Program-made: the position numbers and the translations under genes
Shown: one piece after another, positions 619 through 40,849 of the stretch
How positions within the stretch are numbered: position 1 is the first letter of the stretch
Layout of the letters: each line of letters begins with the position of its first letter
Assembly (NCBI GenBank): GCA_014728175.1
Contig: WJMA01000027.1
Coordinates: 1-54,613, forward strand
Length of the DNA stretch: 54,613 bases
Reading direction: 5' to 3'
Source: Candidatus Fermentibacterota bacterium
GTDB taxonomy: Bacteria; Fermentibacterota; Fermentibacteria; Fermentibacterales; JCC-6
The notes under the pieces: model-generated
Told to the model about the DNA's origin: nothing
The model's input: the letters and a program-made list of their open reading frames with translations, nothing else
Databases searched by the model: none

Positions 619-694
619 GGGGATGTAGCTCAGTTGGCAGAGCGCTGCCTTCGCAAGGCAGAGGTCGGCGGTTCGATCCCGCTCATCTCCACCA
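619..694 (+). tRNA. tRNA-Ala (anticodon CGC)
   Basis: A full cloverleaf can be drawn. The 7-bp acceptor stem pairs 619-625 with 684-690 with one G-U pair. The D arm contains AGCTCAGTTGG, the anticodon stem CTGCC/GGCAG encloses the loop TTCGCAA (anticodon CGC, reading GCG), and the T arm contains GGTTCGATCC. The 3' CCA is encoded (692-694). Length is 76 nt. Confidence 0.95.
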
Positions 695-2179: not shown

Positions 2180-2450
2180 CCGGCCGTGCTAGGTGGGGAG
2201 CCAGCGGTGCCCTGAACCCGCAATCCGCTATAGCGGGACCGAAAGCCCGGAGAGGCATCGTCTGTTGCTGTCGGGTCGGGGCAAGCGGTGTCGATGAACA
2301 GGACCTGCGCGGTGGCAGGCCGTCGAACCCCGTCAGGACCGGAAGGTAGCAGCGGTAGGCGAGCCGTGCCGGGCGACGCAGAGAGACCTGTTCTGAGCTG
2401 GCTGCTTCGTCCCGCGGTATCAGACATGTCGAACCGGGTCGTACGGTCGG
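2180..2450 (+). ncRNA. ffs: Large (Alu-domain-containing) SRP RNA
   Basis: The S-domain signature GTCAGGACCGGAAGGTAGCAG, including the GGAA tetraloop and asymmetric loop bound by Ffh, lies near 2330-2355. The 5' part carries conserved Alu-domain text (GCCGTGCTAGGTGGGGAG, then GCGGTGCCCTG and CAATCCGCTATAGCGGG). The 5' GGCCGTGC pairs with the 3' GTACGGTC (2441-2448), closing the molecule, and an inner helix pairs GAACAGG with CCTGTTC. This is the Bacillus-type ~270-nt form rather than the ~110-nt enterobacterial 4.5S form. It lies directly upstream of dnaX, as in Bacillus subtilis. Ends are accurate to about 5 bases. Confidence 0.92.
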
Positions 2451-4171: not shown

Positions 4172-4755
4172 CCTCCCGGGTTTTCGAGGAGCTGGTGTCC
4201 GCCCTGGCGCAGCTTCCGGGAGTGGGAAGGAAGACCGCCCTCAGACTGGCCTTCTACCTGGTCGACCGCCGGGAGCTGGCCGGAGAGCTCTCCCAGGCCC
4301 TGGGAGCGGTTTACGATAAGGTCCGGGAGTGCGACATGTGCCGCAACCTTACTCAGTCCGATCTCTGCGAGATCTGCAGCGACAGGTCACGCACCGCCTC
4401 CATCTGCGTGGTGGAGAGCCCCGCCGACCTGAGGTCGATCGAGGACGCGGGTCTGTTCAGGGGAAGGTACTTCGTCCTTCACGGTCTGCTCGCCCCCCTG
4501 GACGGGGTCGGGCCGGAGGAGCTGGGTATCGACAAGCTGCTGGAAATGGTTCGGGAGACGGAAGCGGAAGAGGTCATCCTCGCACTGGATGCCACGGCCG
4601 AGGGGGAGGCCACCTGCTCGTACCTGGCGAGGGCGCTCGAGCCGAAGGTGGCGCAGGTCACCAGGCTGGCCAGAGGGCTGCCCTCGGGGGCGTCGGTCGA
4701 GTTCGCCGACGAGCTCACCCTCTCGCAGGCGTTCGAGGGCAGACGCAAAGCCTGA
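4168..4755 (+). CDS. recR: Recombination mediator protein RecR
   Basis: RecR works with RecO/RecF to load RecA on gapped DNA. The 195-residue length is normal. Features in order are a helix-hairpin-helix ('LAQLPGVGRKTALRLAFYL'), a four-cysteine zinc finger ('CDMCRNLTQSDLCEIC'), a Toprim domain ('ICVVESPADLRSIE', 'VILALDATAEGEAT') and the C-terminal 'TRLARGLPSGASVEFADELTL'. The frame is open further upstream, but GTG at 4168 overlaps the ybaB stop as GTGA and gives the family's usual N-terminus. Confidence 0.95.
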   Translation: MTSRVFEELVSALAQLPGVGRKTALRLAFYLVDRRELAGELSQALGAVYDKVRECDMCRNLTQSDLCEICSDRSRTASICVVESPADLRSIEDAGLFRGRYFVLHGLLAPLDGVGPEELGIDKLLEMVRETEAEEVILALDATAEGEATCSYLARALEPKVAQVTRLARGLPSGASVEFADELTLSQAFEGRRKA

Positions 4756-9495: not shown

Positions 9496-9516
9496 TGGCA
9501 ACTCTCCGCATGCCCG

Positions 9517-9545
9517 TTGCATTACGGCGCACGCAATTGCATATT
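9517..9545 (+). promoter_or_regulatory. Promoter 2 upstream of rplM-rpsI
   Basis: TTGCAT (9517-9522) and CATATT (9540-9545) are separated by 17 bases in the AT-richer part of the gap. The leader would be about 75 nt; its GC-rich segment (9552-9590) could form a hairpin, as expected for an L13 leader, but I could not fit a known motif. Confidence 0.4.
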
Positions 9546-9626
9546 TACCGCCCGGTTTGGGACGAGAGCACGAACCGTCCGGCCGGGCTTGAATTCGAAC
9601 GATCGGTAGTATCGATGGAGGAAGAA

Positions 9627-10055
9627 GTGAAAACCTACTCGGCCAGAAGGGGCGATATAGAGCGGTCCTGGTGGCTGGTGGACGGAACGGACCAGATCCT
9701 GGGAAGACTGGCGTCCAGGATAGCGGTGGTGCTGCAGGGAAAGGACAAGCCGGCCTACACGCCAAATGCGGATACCGGCGACTTCGTGGTGGTGGTGAAC
9801 GTGGACAAGGTCCGCATCACCGGCAAGAAGCTCCAACAGAAGTCCTACCACAGCCACAGCGGCTACCCCGGGGGAACCAAGACCGTAACCCTCAGACAAA
9901 GGATGGAGAAGAGCCCCGAAAAGGTCCTTAGAGAGTCCGTGAGGGGGATGTTGCCCAAGAACAGGCTGGCCAGGAGACAGTTGAGAAAGCTCAAGATATA
10001 CAGGGGTGCGGACCACCCCCATCAGGCTCAACAGCCGACGAGCCTGGAAATCTGA
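9627..10055 (+). CDS. rplM: 50S ribosomal protein L13
   Basis: L13 is an early-assembly large-subunit protein. The product has the L13 core: 'WWLVDGTDQILGRLASRIAVVLQGKDKPAYTPNADTGD', 'VRITGKKLQQKSYHSHSGYPGG' and 'VRGMLPKNRLARRQLRKLKIYRG'. The frame is open far upstream. GTG at 9627 is chosen because GGAGG at 9617-9621 sits 5 bases before it; the in-frame ATG at 9615 would overlap that site. Length is 142 residues, as usual. It forms the standard pair with rpsI, 17 bases downstream. Confidence 0.97.
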   Translation: MKTYSARRGDIERSWWLVDGTDQILGRLASRIAVVLQGKDKPAYTPNADTGDFVVVVNVDKVRITGKKLQQKSYHSHSGYPGGTKTVTLRQRMEKSPEKVLRESVRGMLPKNRLARRQLRKLKIYRGADHPHQAQQPTSLEI

Positions 10056-10072
10056 ACGACCTGGGAGGTCGG

Positions 10073-10459
10073 ATGGAGCAGTACATAGGAGTCGGTCGCC
10101 GAAAGACGGCTACCGCACGATGCTATCTGAGACCGGGAAGAGGCCGGGTATTGATCAACCGCCACGACCCCGAGGAGTATTTCGGCAGGCTTTGGCAGAT
10201 GGATCATGCCCTTGAGCCCCTGGACGTGGTGAACGCGCGTGGCAAGTACGACGTGCTGATCAACGTCCGGGGCGGGGGCCTCACCGGCCAGGCCGGTGCC
10301 ATAAGGCTGGGAATAGCCCGGGCGCTGGTCGAGGCCGACCCGGAGCACAGACAGCACTTGAAGGCGGAATACATGCTCCGCCGTGATCCACGGGTAGTGG
10401 AGAGGAAGAAGTACGGCCGGAGAAAGGCGAGAAAGCGCTTCCAGTTCTCCAAGCGCTGA
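10073..10459 (+). CDS. rpsI: 30S ribosomal protein S9
   Basis: S9 has the conserved opening 'IGVGRRKTATARCYLRPGRGRVLINR', 'VNVRGGGLTGQAGAIRLGIARAL' type core and the basic tail 'KKYGRRKARKRFQFSKR' that reaches the P-site tRNA. Length is 128 residues. ATG at 10073 follows GGAGG. It is co-transcribed with rplM. Confidence 0.97.
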   Translation: MEQYIGVGRRKTATARCYLRPGRGRVLINRHDPEEYFGRLWQMDHALEPLDVVNARGKYDVLINVRGGGLTGQAGAIRLGIARALVEADPEHRQHLKAEYMLRRDPRVVERKKYGRRKARKRFQFSKR

Positions 10460-10596
10460 TCTCTCCACCGCTCCGTGGCTTGTGTATCCATAACACACGG
10501 CAGAGACCGGGCCCCCGGTGTTTCCGGGCGCAGCCGGGAATTGGGGCCCGACCTTGTCACCTCTGTCGGAGGAATAACCGAAGGGAAGTCCCGTAG
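10460..10596 (+). promoter_or_regulatory. Structured leader before rpsB
   Basis: This 137-base gap holds a strong GC hairpin: CGGGCCCC near 10516-10524 pairs with GGGGCCCG near 10545-10552, enclosing an inner CCGGG-containing arm. A small TGTGT/ACACA hairpin lies near 10481-10497. There is no T run, so it does not look like an intrinsic terminator. rpsB leaders are often bound by S2 for autoregulation, so this may be such a leader, but I cannot match it to a described S2 leader. Confidence 0.35.
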
Positions 10597-11436
10597 ATGA
10601 GAATACCCACCATGCAGGAGCTGCTGAAGGCCGGCGTCCACTTCGGTCATCAGGAGCGGCGTTGGAACCCCAAGATGAAGCCATACATCTTCATGGCTCG
10701 TAATGGGATACATATAATCGACCTCAAGAAGACCAGCAGCATGCTGGAGGATGCGGCCAACCTGGTCAGCAAGACCGTTTCCGATGGAAAGTCCATCCTC
10801 TTCGTATCCACAAAGAAACAGGGACGGGAATGTGTCCGGGAGCAGGCCCAGAGATGCGGCCAGTTCTACATGACGGAGCGTTGGCTGGGCGGCACCCTCA
10901 CCAACTTCCAGACCGTATGGAAGAGCGTGAAGAGGTTGGAGGCGCTGGAGAGAGCTGAGGAGAAAGGATTTCCTCCAAATCTTACCAAGAGAGAGGTGTT
11001 GCAGAAGGTACGGGAGAAACAGAGGCTGCAGAAGTATCTGGCTGGCATACGGGGCATAGAGGATCTGCCCGGGGCGGTAGTGGTGATCGATGTGAAGAAG
11101 GAGCAGATAGCGGTGCGTGAGGCCCGAAAGCTGGAGATACCCTGCGTGGCTCTGGTGGACACGAATTGCGACCCCACGTTGGTCAACTATCCCATACCCG
11201 GTAACGACGACGCAATCAAGTCGATTTCTCTCATCGTGCAAACGTTGGCGGACTTCGCTTTGCTGGGCGGCGAGGGAAAGGACGCTCCCCGGGAGGCTCC
11301 GGAGGAAGGCGGGGAGCAGGAGGCTGCCGAAGAGACCTCCGAGGCTTCCGAGCCTGAGGGTGACTCCAACGAAGAGACCGACGGCGAGGAGGCCGAGGCA
11401 CCGGCTTCCGAAAAGCCTGGAAAGGACGAGAGCTGA
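10597..11436 (+). CDS. rpsB: 30S ribosomal protein S2 with acidic C-terminal tail
   Basis: Residues 1-230 are a normal S2 ('[28 protein letters not shown]', '[22 protein letters not shown]', '[29 protein letters not shown]'). The last ~47 residues are an extension made almost only of Glu, Ala, Ser, Pro and Asp, predicted disordered. Such tails occur in several candidate phyla and Bacteroidetes relatives. Total length is 279 residues. It heads the rpsB-tsf-pyrH-frr run, with tsf starting 2 bases after its stop. Confidence 0.97.
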
Positions 11437-32633: not shown

Positions 32634-32655
32634 AATAGAGATGAAAGGCGGACCT

Positions 32656-33861
32656 ATGCTATCACTCCGGGCAACAGTCCCGGCAATGGTGCTGTTTGCC
32701 ATGGCGGGTAACGTTCTGGCGCAGCAGGGTGCGGGAGTCCTGGCTCCCCCCGGCGAAGTTACGGTCTCCGATGTACCTAACGACGGCGGCGACCAGCTTC
32801 TGGTATGCTTTGAGCCCAGCCCAGACGACGAGAGGGTCAATTCCTATACGGTCTACCGCCGTATGCAGGGCGAGGGCGACGATGCGTGGAGACCCGTCCG
32901 CGTGCTATTCCCTGGCCAGGGTACGAGCTTCGTGGACGGCCGCGATCCCGACTACTCGGTAAGACCGGGACAGATCTACGAGTACAGGGTGACCGCCTTA
33001 TCCGAAAGCGGAGAGGCGACGGGACCCGTATACGTCGCGGAAGAGGCCGCAGATGGAGAATGGTTCAACACGAATAAGGTGCGCATACTCATCGGATGCG
33101 CCGTCTTCCTGGGACTGATCTTCTTCTTCTTCAGCAAGGCGCAAAGCGGCGACAAGCTATACCTGCGCCCCATTCCCGGCATAGAGGCCATCGACGAGGC
33201 CATAGGCCGGGCCACGGAGATGGGCAAGCCCATTCTCTACATTCCGGGTTTATCGACCATATCCGACGTGGCAACCATAGCCAGCCTCACCATCTTAGGG
33301 AGAGTGGCCAAGAAGGTGGCCGAGTACCAGACACCGATAATGGTTCCCAACCGCAACCCCATAGTTTACACGGTGGCCGAGGAGTCGGTGAAGCAGGCCT
33401 ACCTGGAGGCCGGGAGGCCCGACTCCTACGATCCTGACTCGGTGTTCTTCCTCACCCAGAGCCAGTTCGCCTTCGTGGCCGGGGTGAACGGGATAATGGC
33501 CCGGGAGAAGCCGGCCACCAACTTCTACCTGGGAATGTTCTGGGCGGAATCGCTGATACTTGCGGAAACGGGCTCTTTGTCCGGTGCCATTCAGATAGCG
33601 GGCACCGACGCCGTGACCCAGCTTCCGTTTTTCATTACCACGTGCGATTACACTTTGATAGGCGAGGAACTGTACGCGGCCAGCGCCTACCTGGGCCGGG
33701 AGCCGAAGCAGCTGGGCGCAATCAAGGGACAGGACTACTTCAAGGCCCTGGTGATGTTGATCATCTTCGGTACTCTTGTCCTGGGGATTCTGGACGTCCT
33801 GGCCAATACGGACCTGGTAGCCTGGCTCGACCACCTGGTAACCTCGCCGGCGGCCGGATAG
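32656..33861 (+). CDS. FN3-TM-DUF6754-like membrane protein, copy 1
   Basis: The 401-residue product has a signal peptide ending near 'GNVLA-QQ', a fibronectin type III domain at ~35-125 ('VTVSDVPNDGGDQLLVCFEPSPDD', 'YEYRVTALSESGEATG'), and a transmembrane helix at ~141-161. A ~195-residue core (~165-360) follows, beginning 'KLYLRPIPGIEAIDEAIGRA' and ending 'LGAIKGQD', then a last transmembrane helix. Positive charges after the first helix put the core in the cytoplasm and the FN3 domain outside. The core matches my recollection of DUF6754; its function is unknown. ATG 32656 is chosen because AAAGGCGG at 32644-32651 lies just before it. It heads a four-gene membrane cluster. Confidence 0.82.
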   Translation: MLSLRATVPAMVLFAMAGNVLAQQGAGVLAPPGEVTVSDVPNDGGDQLLVCFEPSPDDERVNSYTVYRRMQGEGDDAWRPVRVLFPGQGTSFVDGRDPDYSVRPGQIYEYRVTALSESGEATGPVYVAEEAADGEWFNTNKVRILIGCAVFLGLIFFFFSKAQSGDKLYLRPIPGIEAIDEAIGRATEMGKPILYIPGLSTISDVATIASLTILGRVAKKVAEYQTPIMVPNRNPIVYTVAEESVKQAYLEAGRPDSYDPDSVFFLTQSQFAFVAGVNGIMAREKPATNFYLGMFWAESLILAETGSLSGAIQIAGTDAVTQLPFFITTCDYTLIGEELYAASAYLGREPKQLGAIKGQDYFKALVMLIIFGTLVLGILDVLANTDLVAWLDHLVTSPAAG

Positions 33862-33883
33862 CCCACCGGAAGGGAGATACGAA

Positions 33884-34528
33884 ATGAGACGAACGATCCC
33901 TCTGCTGATAGTGATGGTGGGCGGAATAATGATGATGATCCAGTTCTTCATCCCCCATCAGATTTCGCAGGCGGTATTCGGCCTTTACACCGACTACGTT
34001 CCGGTCATAGCCGGATTCGCCCTCATACTAGGTGTAGGAAGCCTTACCCGCGTACACTACCACAAAGTGAGGAGGCGGGCCGAGAACTGGCAGTACAGTC
34101 TTCTGGTTATCTTCTTCCTCTACCTGATGCCCGTCTTCGGAATCATCCTGCCCGCCAGCCTGGGAGGGCAGGCCGAGGAGCCCAGCGTCTTCCACTTCCT
34201 CTACCGTTGGGTTCAGATACCTATACAGTCCAGCATGTTCAGCCTTTTGGCCTTCTACATTGCCAGCGCGGCCTTCCGGGCGTTCAGGGCGCGGTCGGCC
34301 ATGGCCACCGTACTGATGTTGGCTGCCGTAATCGTGATGATGGGTCAGGTGCCCATCGGCGACTACCTGGGGAAGTGGTTCCCGGCCCTCGGGTTGTGGA
34401 TCCTTCGTCACCCGAACCTCGGCGGCAAGCGGGCCATACAGCTGGGCGTGGGATTCGGAATACTCGCCACCAACCTGAAGATCATCTTCGGCGTCGAGCG
34501 CAACTGGCTCGGCGGAGCCGGAAGGTAG
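33884..34528 (+). CDS. Polytopic membrane protein of the DUF6754-like cluster (B)
   Basis: This 214-residue protein has six likely transmembrane helices: 'IPLLIVMVGGIMMMIQFFI', 'YVPVIAGFALILGVGSL', 'YSLLVIFFLYLMPVFGIIL', 'SSMFSLLAFYIASAAFRAF', 'MATVLMLAAVIVMMGQV' and a final one near 'AIQLGVGFGILATNLKIIFG'. A short basic loop (HYHKVRRRAENW) follows helix 2. No enzyme motif is seen and I do not recognise the family. It lies 22 bases after the FN3/DUF6754-like gene with GGGAG before the ATG, and 9 bases before gene C. Confidence 0.72.
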   Translation: MRRTIPLLIVMVGGIMMMIQFFIPHQISQAVFGLYTDYVPVIAGFALILGVGSLTRVHYHKVRRRAENWQYSLLVIFFLYLMPVFGIILPASLGGQAEEPSVFHFLYRWVQIPIQSSMFSLLAFYIASAAFRAFRARSAMATVLMLAAVIVMMGQVPIGDYLGKWFPALGLWILRHPNLGGKRAIQLGVGFGILATNLKIIFGVERNWLGGAGR

Positions 34529-34537
34529 GTGGTAGGT

Positions 34538-35557
34538 ATGGCCGAAAATAATTCCATATGGGACAAGCTGTTCAACATGGACCGGCGTTGGATCTTCCTG
34601 CTTATGGCGGTGGTGGTGATTATTCCCTTCTTCTTCAAGATGGGTCTGCCTATAAACACCACAGACGAGGTCGAGGGCATCTACAACTACGTAGACTCGC
34701 TGGAGCAGAATGACGCGGTGATGATAGGCTTCGACTACCAGCCGGGCACCATGGCGGAGAACCAGCCGATGAGCGAGGCGGTGATGCGCCACTGCTTCGC
34801 GCGAAAAGTACCGGTCTTCATCACTGCGGTTCTGCCCCTGGGTAACGGCTTGGCCGAGGAGGCCATCGCGAACCTCACCGACCCCGACGAACCCGGTACC
34901 TTCCAGCGGGTGCGGTACCGGGAGTGGCACAGCTATGACTACGGGCAGGACAGCCTGCCCTCCAGGGTGACCCACGACCAGCTGGTGAATCTCTGGGAGC
35001 GCGACCACCAGCTCCGCGAGGACGCCATGGGCTGGGTTTTCGAGGGCGTTGATTACGTGATACTTGGGTACGCGCCGTTGTTCCACATAGTGCTCCTTGG
35101 TATGGGCCGATCCATAGTCAGCCAATACCCGGCCGACCTCTACGGCAATCCCACCGAGAACATGCCCATGGTCAAACGCAACAAGAGCGCCCGGGAGGTC
35201 GACCTCGGAGTGACCGTCGCCGGGTCATCGGCGGTTCTCTGGTGGCTTACCTACGCCCACGAGAGCTACGGGATGCCGATAGCCTTCGGGGTTACGGCGG
35301 TGATGGCAACGGACTACCTGGTATATCTTCAGTCCGGCCAGATCGTCGGCCAGATGGGCGGTCTGCGGGGAGCGGCGGAGTACGAGGTCATGCTGAAGCG
35401 GGACGGCTATTCCATCGAGGAAGGCAAAGCCTTCCGGGGCATGGATGTGCAGTCGATAGCCCACATCCTGATAGTCATCCTTATTGTTGTAGGAAACGTA
35501 GCCTACTTTGCGGGCGGTTACCACAGGAAGGGCCGCCGACTGAGGGCAGGGAGGTAG
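34538..35557 (+). CDS. Membrane-anchored protein with extracytoplasmic alpha/beta domain (C)
   Basis: The 339-residue protein has one N-terminal helix ('WIFLLMAVVVIIPFFFKMG'), then ~150 residues that look like an alpha/beta (Rossmann-like) domain outside the membrane. The pattern there is 'VEGIYNYVDSLEQNDAVMIGFDY' then 'SEAVMRHCFARKVPVFITAVLPLGNGL'. Further hydrophobic segments follow near residues 165-180 and 225-265, with a last helix 'AHILIVILIVVGNVAYFAGGY' and a basic tail. I do not recognise it. ATG 34538 is used; an in-frame GTG at 34529 abuts the stop of gene B. Confidence 0.72.
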   Translation: MAENNSIWDKLFNMDRRWIFLLMAVVVIIPFFFKMGLPINTTDEVEGIYNYVDSLEQNDAVMIGFDYQPGTMAENQPMSEAVMRHCFARKVPVFITAVLPLGNGLAEEAIANLTDPDEPGTFQRVRYREWHSYDYGQDSLPSRVTHDQLVNLWERDHQLREDAMGWVFEGVDYVILGYAPLFHIVLLGMGRSIVSQYPADLYGNPTENMPMVKRNKSAREVDLGVTVAGSSAVLWWLTYAHESYGMPIAFGVTAVMATDYLVYLQSGQIVGQMGGLRGAAEYEVMLKRDGYSIEEGKAFRGMDVQSIAHILIVILIVVGNVAYFAGGYHRKGRRLRAGR

Positions 35558-35561
35558 CCAC

Positions 35562-36191
35562 ATGTATGAGCAGATAGGGATCTGGTTGGCCGCCTTTTTT
35601 ACCCTGGCCATCTACTCCTTCCTATACAAGGAGAACCCGGTGTACAGGTTCGCCGAGCACGTGGTGGTGGGGATCTCCCTGGGATACTTCATGGTCTACA
35701 CGTACAACAACGTGCTGGAGCCCAGGCTCGTCCGGCCTCTCTTCGTGGAGGGTCAGCTGGGCTTGATACCCATAATGCTGCTGGGGCTGTTGTACATAAC
35801 CAGGTTCTTCCGGAGTGTCTCCTGGCTGTCCAGGTACCCCATAGCGGTCGTGTTCGGAATGGCCATGGGCCTTTCCTTTCCCAGGACTATGCTCTCCATG
35901 GTTCTCAGGCAGGCAGAGGCCACGGTGATCCCCATATACAGGACCGGTTACGCCTGGCACGACGTGCTGGGAAGCGTGATTATCATCGTGGGTACCCTCA
36001 CGGCCTTGATCTACTTCTTCTTCAGCAAGCCGCACAAGGGGTGGTTCTTCGGAACCGGTTCCAAGATAGGCATCTGGATCATAATGATAGCCTTCGGGGC
36101 CACCTTCGGTTTCACGGTCATGGGACGTATCAGCCTGCTCATAGGAAGGGTCCAGTTCCTTCTGACCGACTGGCTGCATTTGATCGAATGA
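35562..36191 (+). CDS. Polytopic membrane protein of the DUF6754-like cluster (D)
   Basis: The 209-residue protein has six or so transmembrane helices, including 'IGIWLAAFFTLAIYSFLY', 'AEHVVVGISLGYFMVYTY', 'GLIPIMLLGLLYITRFF', 'VLGSVIIIVGTLTALIYFFFS' and 'IGIWIIMIAFGATFGFTVMG'. The phrase 'IYFFFSKPHKG' near residue 150 resembles 'IFFFFSKAQSG' after the first helix of the FN3/DUF6754-like protein. A GGGAGGTAGCC ribosome-binding site precedes the ATG. It closes the four-gene cluster. No function can be given. Confidence 0.72.
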   Translation: MYEQIGIWLAAFFTLAIYSFLYKENPVYRFAEHVVVGISLGYFMVYTYNNVLEPRLVRPLFVEGQLGLIPIMLLGLLYITRFFRSVSWLSRYPIAVVFGMAMGLSFPRTMLSMVLRQAEATVIPIYRTGYAWHDVLGSVIIIVGTLTALIYFFFSKPHKGWFFGTGSKIGIWIIMIAFGATFGFTVMGRISLLIGRVQFLLTDWLHLIE

Positions 36192-37462: not shown

Positions 37463-37538
<76 letters not shown>

Positions 37539-37542
37539 GCCC

Positions 37543-37887
37543 TTATGGCTCCTCGGCAAGCCTATCCTCCAGCTGCCCGATCTTTCTGCCCAGCGAGTTC
37601 ATCTGGAACTCTATCGAATTGAGCACCCAGAACTGGAAGTGGTATACTCGGGCCTGCTGATGTATCATCCAGATGATCTTCAGAGAGACCAGCAGAACCG
37701 CGATCTCCAGGGATATCAGAGGAGGAAAGCCCTCGACGTGGATTCCGGCGAGGTGACGGAACAGATCGAAGAAAAACAGTCCCCCTACCAGGACTACGAA
37801 GATGGCGTTCATGATCCGGTCCCTCCTGGAGACCACCTTTCCTCCTATCTGGCCGATTATCTTACGAACCTTTTCCTTCTCGGCCAC
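37543..37887 (-). CDS. Small coiled/transmembrane protein, upstream amber codon
   Basis: From GTG 37887 the protein has 114 residues: a charged helix ('AEKEKVRKIIGQIGGKVVSRRDR'), two transmembrane helices ('IMNAIFVVLVGGLFFFDLF' and 'LISLEIAVLLVSLKIIWMI') and a C-terminal amphipathic helix. No ribosome-binding site precedes this GTG. A near-perfect one (AAGGAGG) with an ATG lies 14 codons upstream in the same frame, but the fifth codon there is TAG. The frame after the stop continues as an acidic helix (ILKEELEQYV) leading into AEKEK. The gene may be a recent nonsense mutant, restart after a four-codon leader, or contain a base error. It ends 4 bases from tRNA-Phe on the other strand. Confidence 0.6.
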   Translation of the reverse strand: MAEKEKVRKIIGQIGGKVVSRRDRIMNAIFVVLVGGLFFFDLFRHLAGIHVEGFPPLISLEIAVLLVSLKIIWMIHQQARVYHFQFWVLNSIEFQMNSLGRKIGQLEDRLAEEP

Positions 37888-39221: not shown

Positions 39222-39689
39222 ATGGTTTCGATAAAAAGGATGGAGCCCGAGGATCATCCGGCCCTGCTGCGTCTGTGGAACCGGTTCGAGGAGACTACGA
39301 CTACGGGAGCAGACGGTCCGGAGGGCTTCGCCGGGTTTCTGGGGCGCAACGAGGGCCTCTGTTATTGTGCCGTAGACGGTGAGGATCTAATCGGGTCCGT
39401 CATGGCCGGCGACGACGGCCGCAGGGGTTACGTGTACCACCTGGCCGTGGACGAGAGATACCAGGGCAGGGGAGTGGGCAGAATGCTCATGGAGGAAGTG
39501 GAGAAGAGCCTGAGGAGCCGGGGCGTGGAGAAGGCGCATCTCTTCATTTACGGGGATAACCCGGCCATAGACTTCTACCGGCGGTTGGGATGGCACCTCA
39601 GGGGCGATATAGAGATTATGAGCAAGGTCCTTATAGGCAGCGAGTACATGGGAACCAGACTGGATGAGGGAGGGGCGGATCGAGAATGA
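39222..39689 (+). CDS. GNAT family N-acetyltransferase, upstream of DUF6754-like copy 2
   Basis: The 155-residue protein has the GNAT core: 'HPALLRLWNRFEE' helix, strand 'DLIGSVMAGDDGRRGYVYHLAVDERYQGRGVGRMLMEEVE' with the acetyl-CoA pyrophosphate loop Q-GRGVG, and 'FYRRLGW'. It resembles YpeA/RimI-like members. The stop overlaps the ATG of the second DUF6754-like protein (ATGA). The substrate is unknown. A 135-base gap precedes it in which I see no further gene. Confidence 0.9.
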   Translation: MVSIKRMEPEDHPALLRLWNRFEETTTTGADGPEGFAGFLGRNEGLCYCAVDGEDLIGSVMAGDDGRRGYVYHLAVDERYQGRGVGRMLMEEVEKSLRSRGVEKAHLFIYGDNPAIDFYRRLGWHLRGDIEIMSKVLIGSEYMGTRLDEGGADRE

Positions 39690-40849
39690 TGCTGCTTACC
39701 CTTTTGCTGGCAGCCCTGGCCGCGGGCGGGGCTCCGGAGATCCTGGCGGTGGAGGACCGCCCCAACGACGCCGGGGACGGCCTTCACGTCCACGTGCGCG
39801 GGTTGGAGGACGAGAGCGCGCTAAGCCTTTACCTGCTTTTAAGGCGTCGGGAGGGAGAGAGGTCCTTCCGGCGGGTTATGGACCTGTTTCCCCCGCTGGG
39901 AGAGACCGTTCTGGTCGATGGCAGAGATCCGGACTACCCGGTTCTACCGGGGGTCAGATACCAGTACAGGCTGCTTGCGGTTACCGCTTCCGGGGATACG
40001 ATATCCAGTCGAAACTACACCGCGGATGAGACCGCCCGGGGAGAGCTCTTCCATACCGGTACCGTACCCGTACTTGTGTCGTGCGTTCTGTTCCTGGGCC
40101 TGATGCTGACCTACTTCCACAGGGCCCGGAGGGGTGAGAAGCTGTACCTGAGGCCCATTCCCGGCATAGAGGCCATCGACGAGGCCATAGGCCGGGCCAC
40201 GGAGATGGGCAAGCCAATCCTGTACGTTCCCGGGCTTTCCACCATATCCGACGTGGCCACCATAGCCAGCCTCACCATCCTGGGGAGGGTGGCCAAAAAG
40301 GTGGCCGAGTACCAGACTCCGCTGAAGGTTCCCAATTGCGATCCCATCGTCTACACCGTGGCCGAGGAGTCGGTAAGGCAGGCCTACCTGGAGGCCGGGA
40401 GGCCCGACGCCTACGACGAGGACTCGGTGTTCTTCCTCACCCAGAGCCAGTTCGCTTTCGTGGCCGGGGTCAACGGGATAATGGCCCGGGAGAGGCCGGC
40501 CACCAACTTCTACCTGGGCATGTTCTGGGCGGAGTCGCTGATCCTTGCGGAGACGGGTTCTTTGTCCGGTGCCATTCAAATAGCAGGCACCGACGCCGTG
40601 ACCCAGCTTCCGTTCTTCATAACCACCTGCGACTATACCTTGATAGGCGAGGAGCTGTATGCGGCCAGCGCCTACCTGGGCCGGGAGCCGAAGCAGCTGG
40701 GCGCAATCAAGGGCCAGGATGCGTTCAAGGCCGTGATCATGTTGCTGGTGCTGGCCAGTCTGCTTCTGAACGTTTACGCCCTGCTCTTCGGCGACAGCTT
40801 CCCCCTGCAATGGACGAGAGATGTCATACACGCGGTGGGCGGTGAGTAG
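39686..40849 (+). CDS. FN3-TM-DUF6754-like membrane protein, copy 2
   Basis: The 387-residue paralogue of the protein at 32656 has the same layout: signal peptide, FN3-like domain (~20-110), transmembrane helix ~127-147, core ~150-344 and a C-terminal helix. In the ~195-residue core I count only about nine differences from copy 1, most in the short stretch 'PLKVPNCDP' versus 'PIMVPNRNP'. The FN3 part and both helices share only scattered residues, such as 'VDGRDPDY'. The DNA of the core differs at many third codon positions, so this is not a very recent duplication. It is coupled to a GNAT gene on each side rather than to genes B, C and D. Confidence 0.82.
   Translation: MMLLTLLLAALAAGGAPEILAVEDRPNDAGDGLHVHVRGLEDESALSLYLLLRRREGERSFRRVMDLFPPLGETVLVDGRDPDYPVLPGVRYQYRLLAVTASGDTISSRNYTADETARGELFHTGTVPVLVSCVLFLGLMLTYFHRARRGEKLYLRPIPGIEAIDEAIGRATEMGKPILYVPGLSTISDVATIASLTILGRVAKKVAEYQTPLKVPNCDPIVYTVAEESVRQAYLEAGRPDAYDEDSVFFLTQSQFAFVAGVNGIMARERPATNFYLGMFWAESLILAETGSLSGAIQIAGTDAVTQLPFFITTCDYTLIGEELYAASAYLGREPKQLGAIKGQDAFKAVIMLLVLASLLLNVYALLFGDSFPLQWTRDVIHAVGGE

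Follow-up and report, generated by a model that had tools for sequence, protein, structure and literature searches.

The subject of this analysis is a cassette of four membrane protein genes, here called A, B, C and D, in a 54,613-nucleotide stretch (the window) of the genome of a Candidatus Fermentibacterota bacterium (assembly GCA_014728175.1, contig WJMA01000027.1, our contig C11). The first-pass annotation of the window had described four close-set membrane genes with 4–22 bases between them, and all four open reading frames (ORFs) are indeed present on the forward strand at that place (Table 1). The gaps between A/B, B/C and C/D measure 22, 9 and 4 bases, and the B/C gap falls to 0 if C begins at its alternative GTG start. 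Protein A belongs to the DUF6754 family (PF20539), with a Pfam match of 385.6 bits (E = 1.1e-115) over domain positions 3–247 of 257. A second A gene, which the first-pass annotation overlooked, lies 3.5 kb downstream of the cassette. Both A and this lone paralogue score above the Pfam gathering cut-off (27 bits for PF20539) and span the whole domain. B, C and D matched no Pfam or NCBIfam family above cut-off and had no meaningful match to sequences of known structure in the PDB. The source genome (2.6 Mb) contains three DUF6754 genes; among the named genomes of the collection, Candidatus Sabulitectum and Fermentibacter are nearest to it.

Profiles for A–D revealed that the cassette recurs as a unit in many phyla. 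A was followed by B, C and D, on the same strand and in the same order, at 139 of 151 testable loci, i.e., A genes in fetched loci with enough downstream sequence. Six of the 12 exceptions are lone A genes, including the one in the window, and in two others (L186 and L187) C is so long that D exceeded the search distance. DUF6754 was found in all 42 genomes of the phylum and in none of 14 well-known control genomes, and C in 41 of the 42. Among 75 genomes outside the phylum, A was present in 16, and C and D were each present in exactly the same 16. The chance of identical A and D sets is about 1e-16 if genomes are treated as independent, an overstatement given shared ancestry, although the pattern itself is plain; the A-B, A-C and A-D distance matrices correlate at 0.78–0.82, which likewise partly reflects shared ancestry. 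The first-pass annotation had made its proposal depend on B, C and D recurring beside DUF6754 genes elsewhere, and they do. A-B-C-D is a real, conserved, operon-like unit, and this conclusion is well supported.

A scan of genome contigs yielded at least 571 relatives. The best 80 of these came from WOR-3/Stahlbacteria, Zixibacteria, Cloacimonadota, Edwardsbacteria, Latescibacterota, Poribacteria, TA06, CSSED10-310, Eisenbacteria, Armatimonadota, Gemmatimonadota and others. Of the Armatimonadota genomes sampled, 103 of 121 were positive, as were 34 of 121 genomes of Chloroflexota, a phylum name that is our own reading, partly from neighbouring genes. Several genomes contain 2–6 copies, and tandem runs of two or three cassettes are frequent. 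As A is closer to the cassette of another organism than to the neighbouring cassette in 36 of 42 tandem cassettes, the paralogous cassette sets are old. We considered a mobile or plasmid origin and rejected it, as the A core was not found in plasmids and the pattern within the phylum (42/42) is vertical. The best reading is that the system is mostly vertically inherited.

The earlier proposal of a four-gene system held for the four genes, which are conserved together, and proved too narrow in its limits, as the system also includes two further families, M and K, and usually two small ones, E and F. M is a predicted cytosolic ATPase of the MutL type, within the actin-like ASKHA superfamily, and K a sandwich-barrel/KOW protein and putative adaptor. 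The orders encountered were E-F-M-K-A-B-C-D, E-F-A-B-C-D, A-B-C-D-M-K and (E)-F-A-B-C-D-M-K. In Armatimonadota, E and F precede the module at 19 of 20 fetched loci, mostly as plain E-F-A-B-C-D; Chloroflexota loci read (E)-F-A-B-C-D-M-K, and a locus from another genome (L166) reads A-B-C-D-M-K. The other cassette of the source genome (L004, on contig C52) carries the complete set as eight consecutive genes. Its M protein matches the MutL family (PF13941) with 419.9 bits (E = 1.6e-125; Pfam cut-off 27) and, as read from the sequence, retains the glycine-rich ASKHA-type motifs DxGSTTTK, DxGGATTD and G[ST]GG. Against the NCBIfam model of the GlmL subfamily (TIGR01319), however, it scores 159 bits where the cut-off is 204, and for this reason we did not file it as GlmL. 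By sequence, M is an orphan MutL branch separate from GlmL. For K, the only matches, to domains of the barrel-sandwich and KOW types, are weak. E contains two hydrophobic stretches and matches bPH_6 weakly (5e-4, short of the cut-off), and F, of about 100 amino acids (aa), contains one such stretch.

The distribution of M and K largely follows that of A. K occurred in 15 of the 16 A-positive genomes outside the phylum and in none of the other 59; for M, scores above the MutL cut-off came from 14 A-positive and two A-negative genomes. One of these two A-negative genomes, G229, has an open frame of no more than 455 aa, which equals the NCBI GlmL model in size, and its MutL protein may be a true glutamate mutase helper. 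The cassette in the window has no adjoining E, F, M or K and represents a second, paralogous set in the source genome. Beside cassettes of this type in relatives, M and K are fused into a single protein of about 920–970 aa, which starts 76 bases after D in L200 and lies 4–7 kb beyond the cassette in L199 and L201. The source genome itself contains M and K both as separate genes in L004 and as a fusion in L198 (contig C17), where the MutL match reaches 309.8 bits (3.9e-92; cut-off 27). As the fusion is found near orthologous cassettes in relatives and also on contig C17, the window-type cassette has its own M-K. The fusion also suggests that M and K act together. The genomic link of the A-B-C-D unit to M-K is well supported. 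In one relative (G027:C2:57125-64453) there is a seemingly broken or frameshifted copy of C, D and M, in several pieces with one stop, which could be an assembly error.

Structural models and topology agree with what the first-pass annotation had read from the letters: an outside FN3 domain and a cytoplasmic core in A, six helices each in B and D, and an outside alpha/beta domain in C. A consists of a signal peptide, an FN3 ectodomain, a transmembrane (TM) helix, the cytoplasmic DUF6754 alpha/beta core and a second TM helix. In the AlphaFold2 model (predicted local distance difference test, pLDDT, 93.1) these correspond to FN3 at residues ~35–122, TM 139–163, a six-strand alpha/beta core and TM ~350–383. 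The FN3 fold is indicated by both PDB sequence matches and fold matches, and the 50 Foldseek matches listed for A are almost all to this domain. The model of C (pLDDT 94.2; predicted template modelling score, pTM, 0.90) has TM 16–32, a six-strand alpha/beta domain and TM ~297–337; Foldseek returned no PDB match at E ≤ 0.001 and none in the viral library. Neither this fold search for C nor the searches of PDB sequences for B, C and D gave a clear unrelated function. The charge distribution over the families places the A core in the cytoplasm and the C domain outside, and orients B with both termini inside and D with both termini outside, i.e., inverted relative to B. The C proteins of Chloroflexota are extended N-terminally by a zinc ribbon and a long region, which fits with an inside N-terminus. 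These proteins (L180–L197, e.g., L186 9570-13910) are often 800–1480 aa long, and their long low-complexity region repeats 'P-W-L' motifs (PPWLQDL, TPDWLR).

Few residues are conserved across three distant groups. Those retained by 85% or more of the sequences in every group, with only six A sequences counted for Chloroflexota, are E188, G198, G293, L300, G336 and A344 in A; G14, A129, R132, R183, G188 and G192 in B; E74, G177, G275, G278 and G319 in C; and T14, S19, G37, G41, G99, F152, G170, G179 and R196 in D. Such a pattern would suit packing and contacts better than a catalytic site. The shared phrase that the first-pass annotation had noticed in A and D ('FFFFSKAQSG' and 'YFFFSKPHKG') does not reflect homology, as the profile comparison of the two proteins gave a probability of 2.2%. 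The alpha/beta domains of A and C share their number of strands (six) and the order of helices and strands, each is closed by a TM helix, and profile alignment brings their first halves into register. An inverted-pair relationship, with the A core homologous to C and B to D, was nevertheless rejected at profile probabilities of only ~1.3–1.5% and 1.2%, respectively, and we retain it as speculation.

The core is by far the most conserved part of A (~85–98% between genera of the phylum), and the two A genes of the window differ sharply in how their parts are related. Their cores share 95% amino acid and 91% DNA identity, whereas their ectodomains, both FN3 and different, share 39% of amino acids. 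Third-position identity is 65–95% within residues ~165–358 and 15–55% elsewhere, the boundaries falling at the two TM helices. The same arrangement with a lone A was found in relatives (L039, L040 and L199–L201); in L199–L201 the lone A lies 2–4 kb beyond the M-K fusion. In the pairs L039/L040 and L199/L201 the ectodomains of the lone proteins group together (61–69% vs ~30–40%), so that the duplication is older than the similarity of the cores. The two paralogues appear to have undergone gene conversion in the cytoplasmic core alone, as would be expected if each A variant had to match one common set of inside partners while their outer parts diverge. A small membrane protein gene on the reverse strand (37543-37887) lies between the cassette and the lone A and occupies the same place in L199 (13573-13977).

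Table 1. Coordinates of the genes, tracts and RNA features discussed here, in the window or at the locus named.
Feature	Locus	Position	Strand	Remarks
Gene A	window	32656-33861	+	401 aa; in-frame ATG at 32641 also possible
Gene B	window	33884-34528	+	214 aa; ORF; six-TM; conserved position directly after A
Gene C	window	34538-35557	+	339 aa from ATG; alternative start GTG at 34529
Gene D	window	35562-36191	+	209 aa; ORF; six-TM
Lone A paralogue	window	39686-40849	+	PF20539 E=3.6e-115, 383.9 bits; different FN3 ectodomain
Common core tract in A	window	33148-33729	+	probable gene-conversion tract, from third-position identity
Matching core tract in lone A	window	40133-40714	+	from core and third-position identity
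E	L004	3892-4311
F	L004	~4289-4708
M	L004	4671-6542
K	L004	6546-7676
A	L004	7680-8852
B	L004	8863-9519
C	L004	~9516-10391
D	L004	~10388-11038
M-K fusion	L198	5803-8724		973 aa; source genome contig C17
M-K fusion	L200	5725-8475
M-K fusion	L199	10476-13238
M-K fusion	L201	11622-14420
Large bacterial SRP (signal recognition particle) RNA	window	2184-2446
tRNA gene	window	619-691
tRNA gene	window	37463-37535

Outside the module, the surroundings vary. A D-2-hydroxyacid dehydrogenase gene lies upstream of the cassette in the window and, as read from the sequence, also precedes it in L199 and L201. No sigma-70-type promoter or intrinsic terminator was found around the cluster, a result that is uninformative. 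At L126, L128 and L172 the cassettes are oriented divergently to genes for sugar-type ABC binding proteins and permeases, and an Edwardsbacteria cassette (L131 2717-10044) appears by sequence reading to sit inside a V-type ATPase cluster, with genes like those for subunits I, E and C immediately upstream. Near the cassette, five Cloacimonadota loci (L071, L072, L075, L089 and L097; Pfam-tested in L072 only) share a gene for an M23 peptidase lipoprotein, and in this phylum the part of A outside the membrane measures ~700 aa. TonB receptors, V-ATPase genes, sugar ABC genes and the M23 peptidase were each considered as a constant neighbour that might hint at function and were rejected, as each occurs only in some groups.

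We compared the system with those already described. A and its lone paralogue are clear members of DUF6754, an entry that Pfam describes as a domain of unknown function and that nothing connects to B, C, D, M or K. M is likewise a clear Pfam MutL member with ASKHA motifs, but it differs from MutL/GlmL proteins in its length (~570–640 aa vs ~455 aa in the A-negative genome G229), in its tie to a membrane module and in its fusion to K in some genomes. In PilM-PilN-PilO and GspL systems, a cytoplasmic actin-fold ATPase acts with bitopic proteins that bear extracytoplasmic alpha/beta domains. The likeness is one of idea: no homology was seen, and the system described here has two six-helix proteins and an alpha/beta domain on either side of the membrane; Pfam scans of its members found no PilM/GspL-type ASKHA protein and no PilN or PilO homologue. 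E resembles the bPH_6/YcxB-like PH-domain membrane proteins through its weak match, and differs from them as a small partner of F-A-B-C-D. The combination of P-loop ATPase and permease that defines ABC transporters is absent, as no ABC domain was found in A–D, E, F, M or K. No paper naming DUF6754, PF20539 or PF13941 was found in a search that lay outside subscription papers and preprints. One lead, a Dictyoglomus genome paper, was discarded because its MutL is the mismatch-repair protein (PMC5167688).

The suggestion of an undescribed system in the first-pass annotation is thus borne out by conservation across phyla; no description of this DUF6754-MutL system or of a known function for it was found. 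We know of no described system that combines these families. The interpretation that we lean towards, by a little more than even odds, is a trans-envelope complex coupled to an ATPase. It builds on the unit, its partners, the domain layout, the co-occurrence and the homogenisation of the core as documented above. B and D would form the core within the membrane, A would expose an alpha/beta domain to the cytoplasm and, in the present group, carry an FN3 ectodomain that varies, and C would offer an alpha/beta domain outside. M-K would act on the cytoplasmic core of A, such that the ATP cycle of M, relayed via K, would alter the state of B-C-D. ATP use inside could thereby be coupled to binding, movement or force outside, where the outer domains of C and A would meet a substrate, ligand or load. 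Different A ectodomains, those of the cassette A and of the lone A, could be mounted on the same core.

Several points weigh against this reading. Two A-positive genomes (G186 and G237) lack an M above the cut-off, and G237 also lacks K; M-K may be dispensable or may have been missed. Few residues are invariant across the three groups, most of them are glycines, and there is no active site that points to a substrate. Neighbouring genes outside the module differ between phyla. To our knowledge, it is not established that ASKHA ATPases power transport. That A-B-C-D is a physical complex, that M hydrolyses ATP, how the two are coupled and what the substrate or load may be are what we infer from sequences and models.

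More specific explanations can be set against the same evidence. A–D could be an ATP-driven transporter or flippase, with B and D lining the path, one Rossmann-like domain each from A and C as the gate on either side and different substrates for the paralogous cassettes. Two six-helix proteins predicted to be oppositely oriented, with one alpha/beta domain on each side, would suit such a design, as would the multiple copies per genome and the position of cassettes beside sugar-type ABC permease genes at the three loci named above and, also by sequence reading, beside TonB-type receptor genes at eight loci. However, A–D contain no transporter motif or fold match, homology between A and C or between B and D was undetected (probability ≤1.5%), B and D have few conserved charged residues and the neighbours are inconstant. 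We consider this explanation possible and on the whole doubtful. A tentative one, to which we would not give much weight either, is that A–D serve as a scaffold or signal relay in the membrane, tethering an actin-like protein to the envelope with M-K bound to A inside, and organise cell-wall or surface structures much as PilM-PilN-PilO or FtsA do with their membrane partners. That M is an ASKHA protein is consistent with this, and so is the variable A ectodomain, which measures ~700 aa in Cloacimonadota, whose loci also have the M23 peptidase gene nearby; yet M falls into the MutL/GlmL branch with no match to the PilM or FtsA families, filament formation has no support and the M23 link is confined to Cloacimonadota. 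Transport, scaffolding and signalling cannot be told apart on the present data.

It is improbable that the A core is instead an enzyme for a membrane-bound substrate, with B, C, D and M-K serving in its assembly and reactivation in the way proposed for GlmL and glutamate mutase. The strong conservation of the core and the membership of M in a family known from mutase operons would agree with this, but only E188 and a few glycines and aliphatic residues of A are kept in Chloroflexota, no catalytic motif is present and no mutase genes were seen adjoining the system. An accidental neighbourhood of unrelated membrane proteins, which would accord with each family on its own having no known function, is refuted by the gene order conserved across phyla and the matched presence and absence, and we give it practically no credence.

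A bolder form of the trans-envelope reading is correspondingly speculative, and we rate it as unlikely as it stands. It holds that the system is a new class of trans-envelope machine, in which a MutL-type ASKHA ATPase, via a sandwich-barrel adaptor, drives a two-faced Rossmann-like complex (A inside, C outside) around two oppositely oriented six-helix proteins, possibly as a pseudo-symmetric ATP-powered transporter or force relay. This would be a core function of many uncultured phyla, and also of Armatimonadota and Chloroflexota.

Eight conserved gene families thus occur in the same few orders across distant phyla, and six of them (B, C, D, E, F and K) have no above-threshold family name in the libraries searched. 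An orphan branch of MutL ATPases, hitherto read as glutamate mutase helpers, becomes linked to a membrane machine. Most host bacteria are uncultured. Two of the Chloroflexota hosts, which we tentatively take to be Chloroflexus aurantiacus J-10-fl and Herpetosiphon aurantiacus, look like cultured species, so that the system is open to testing. If M-K does bind the A core and hydrolyse ATP, these genes would encode a class of envelope machinery that is missing from the textbook model organisms and has been overlooked.

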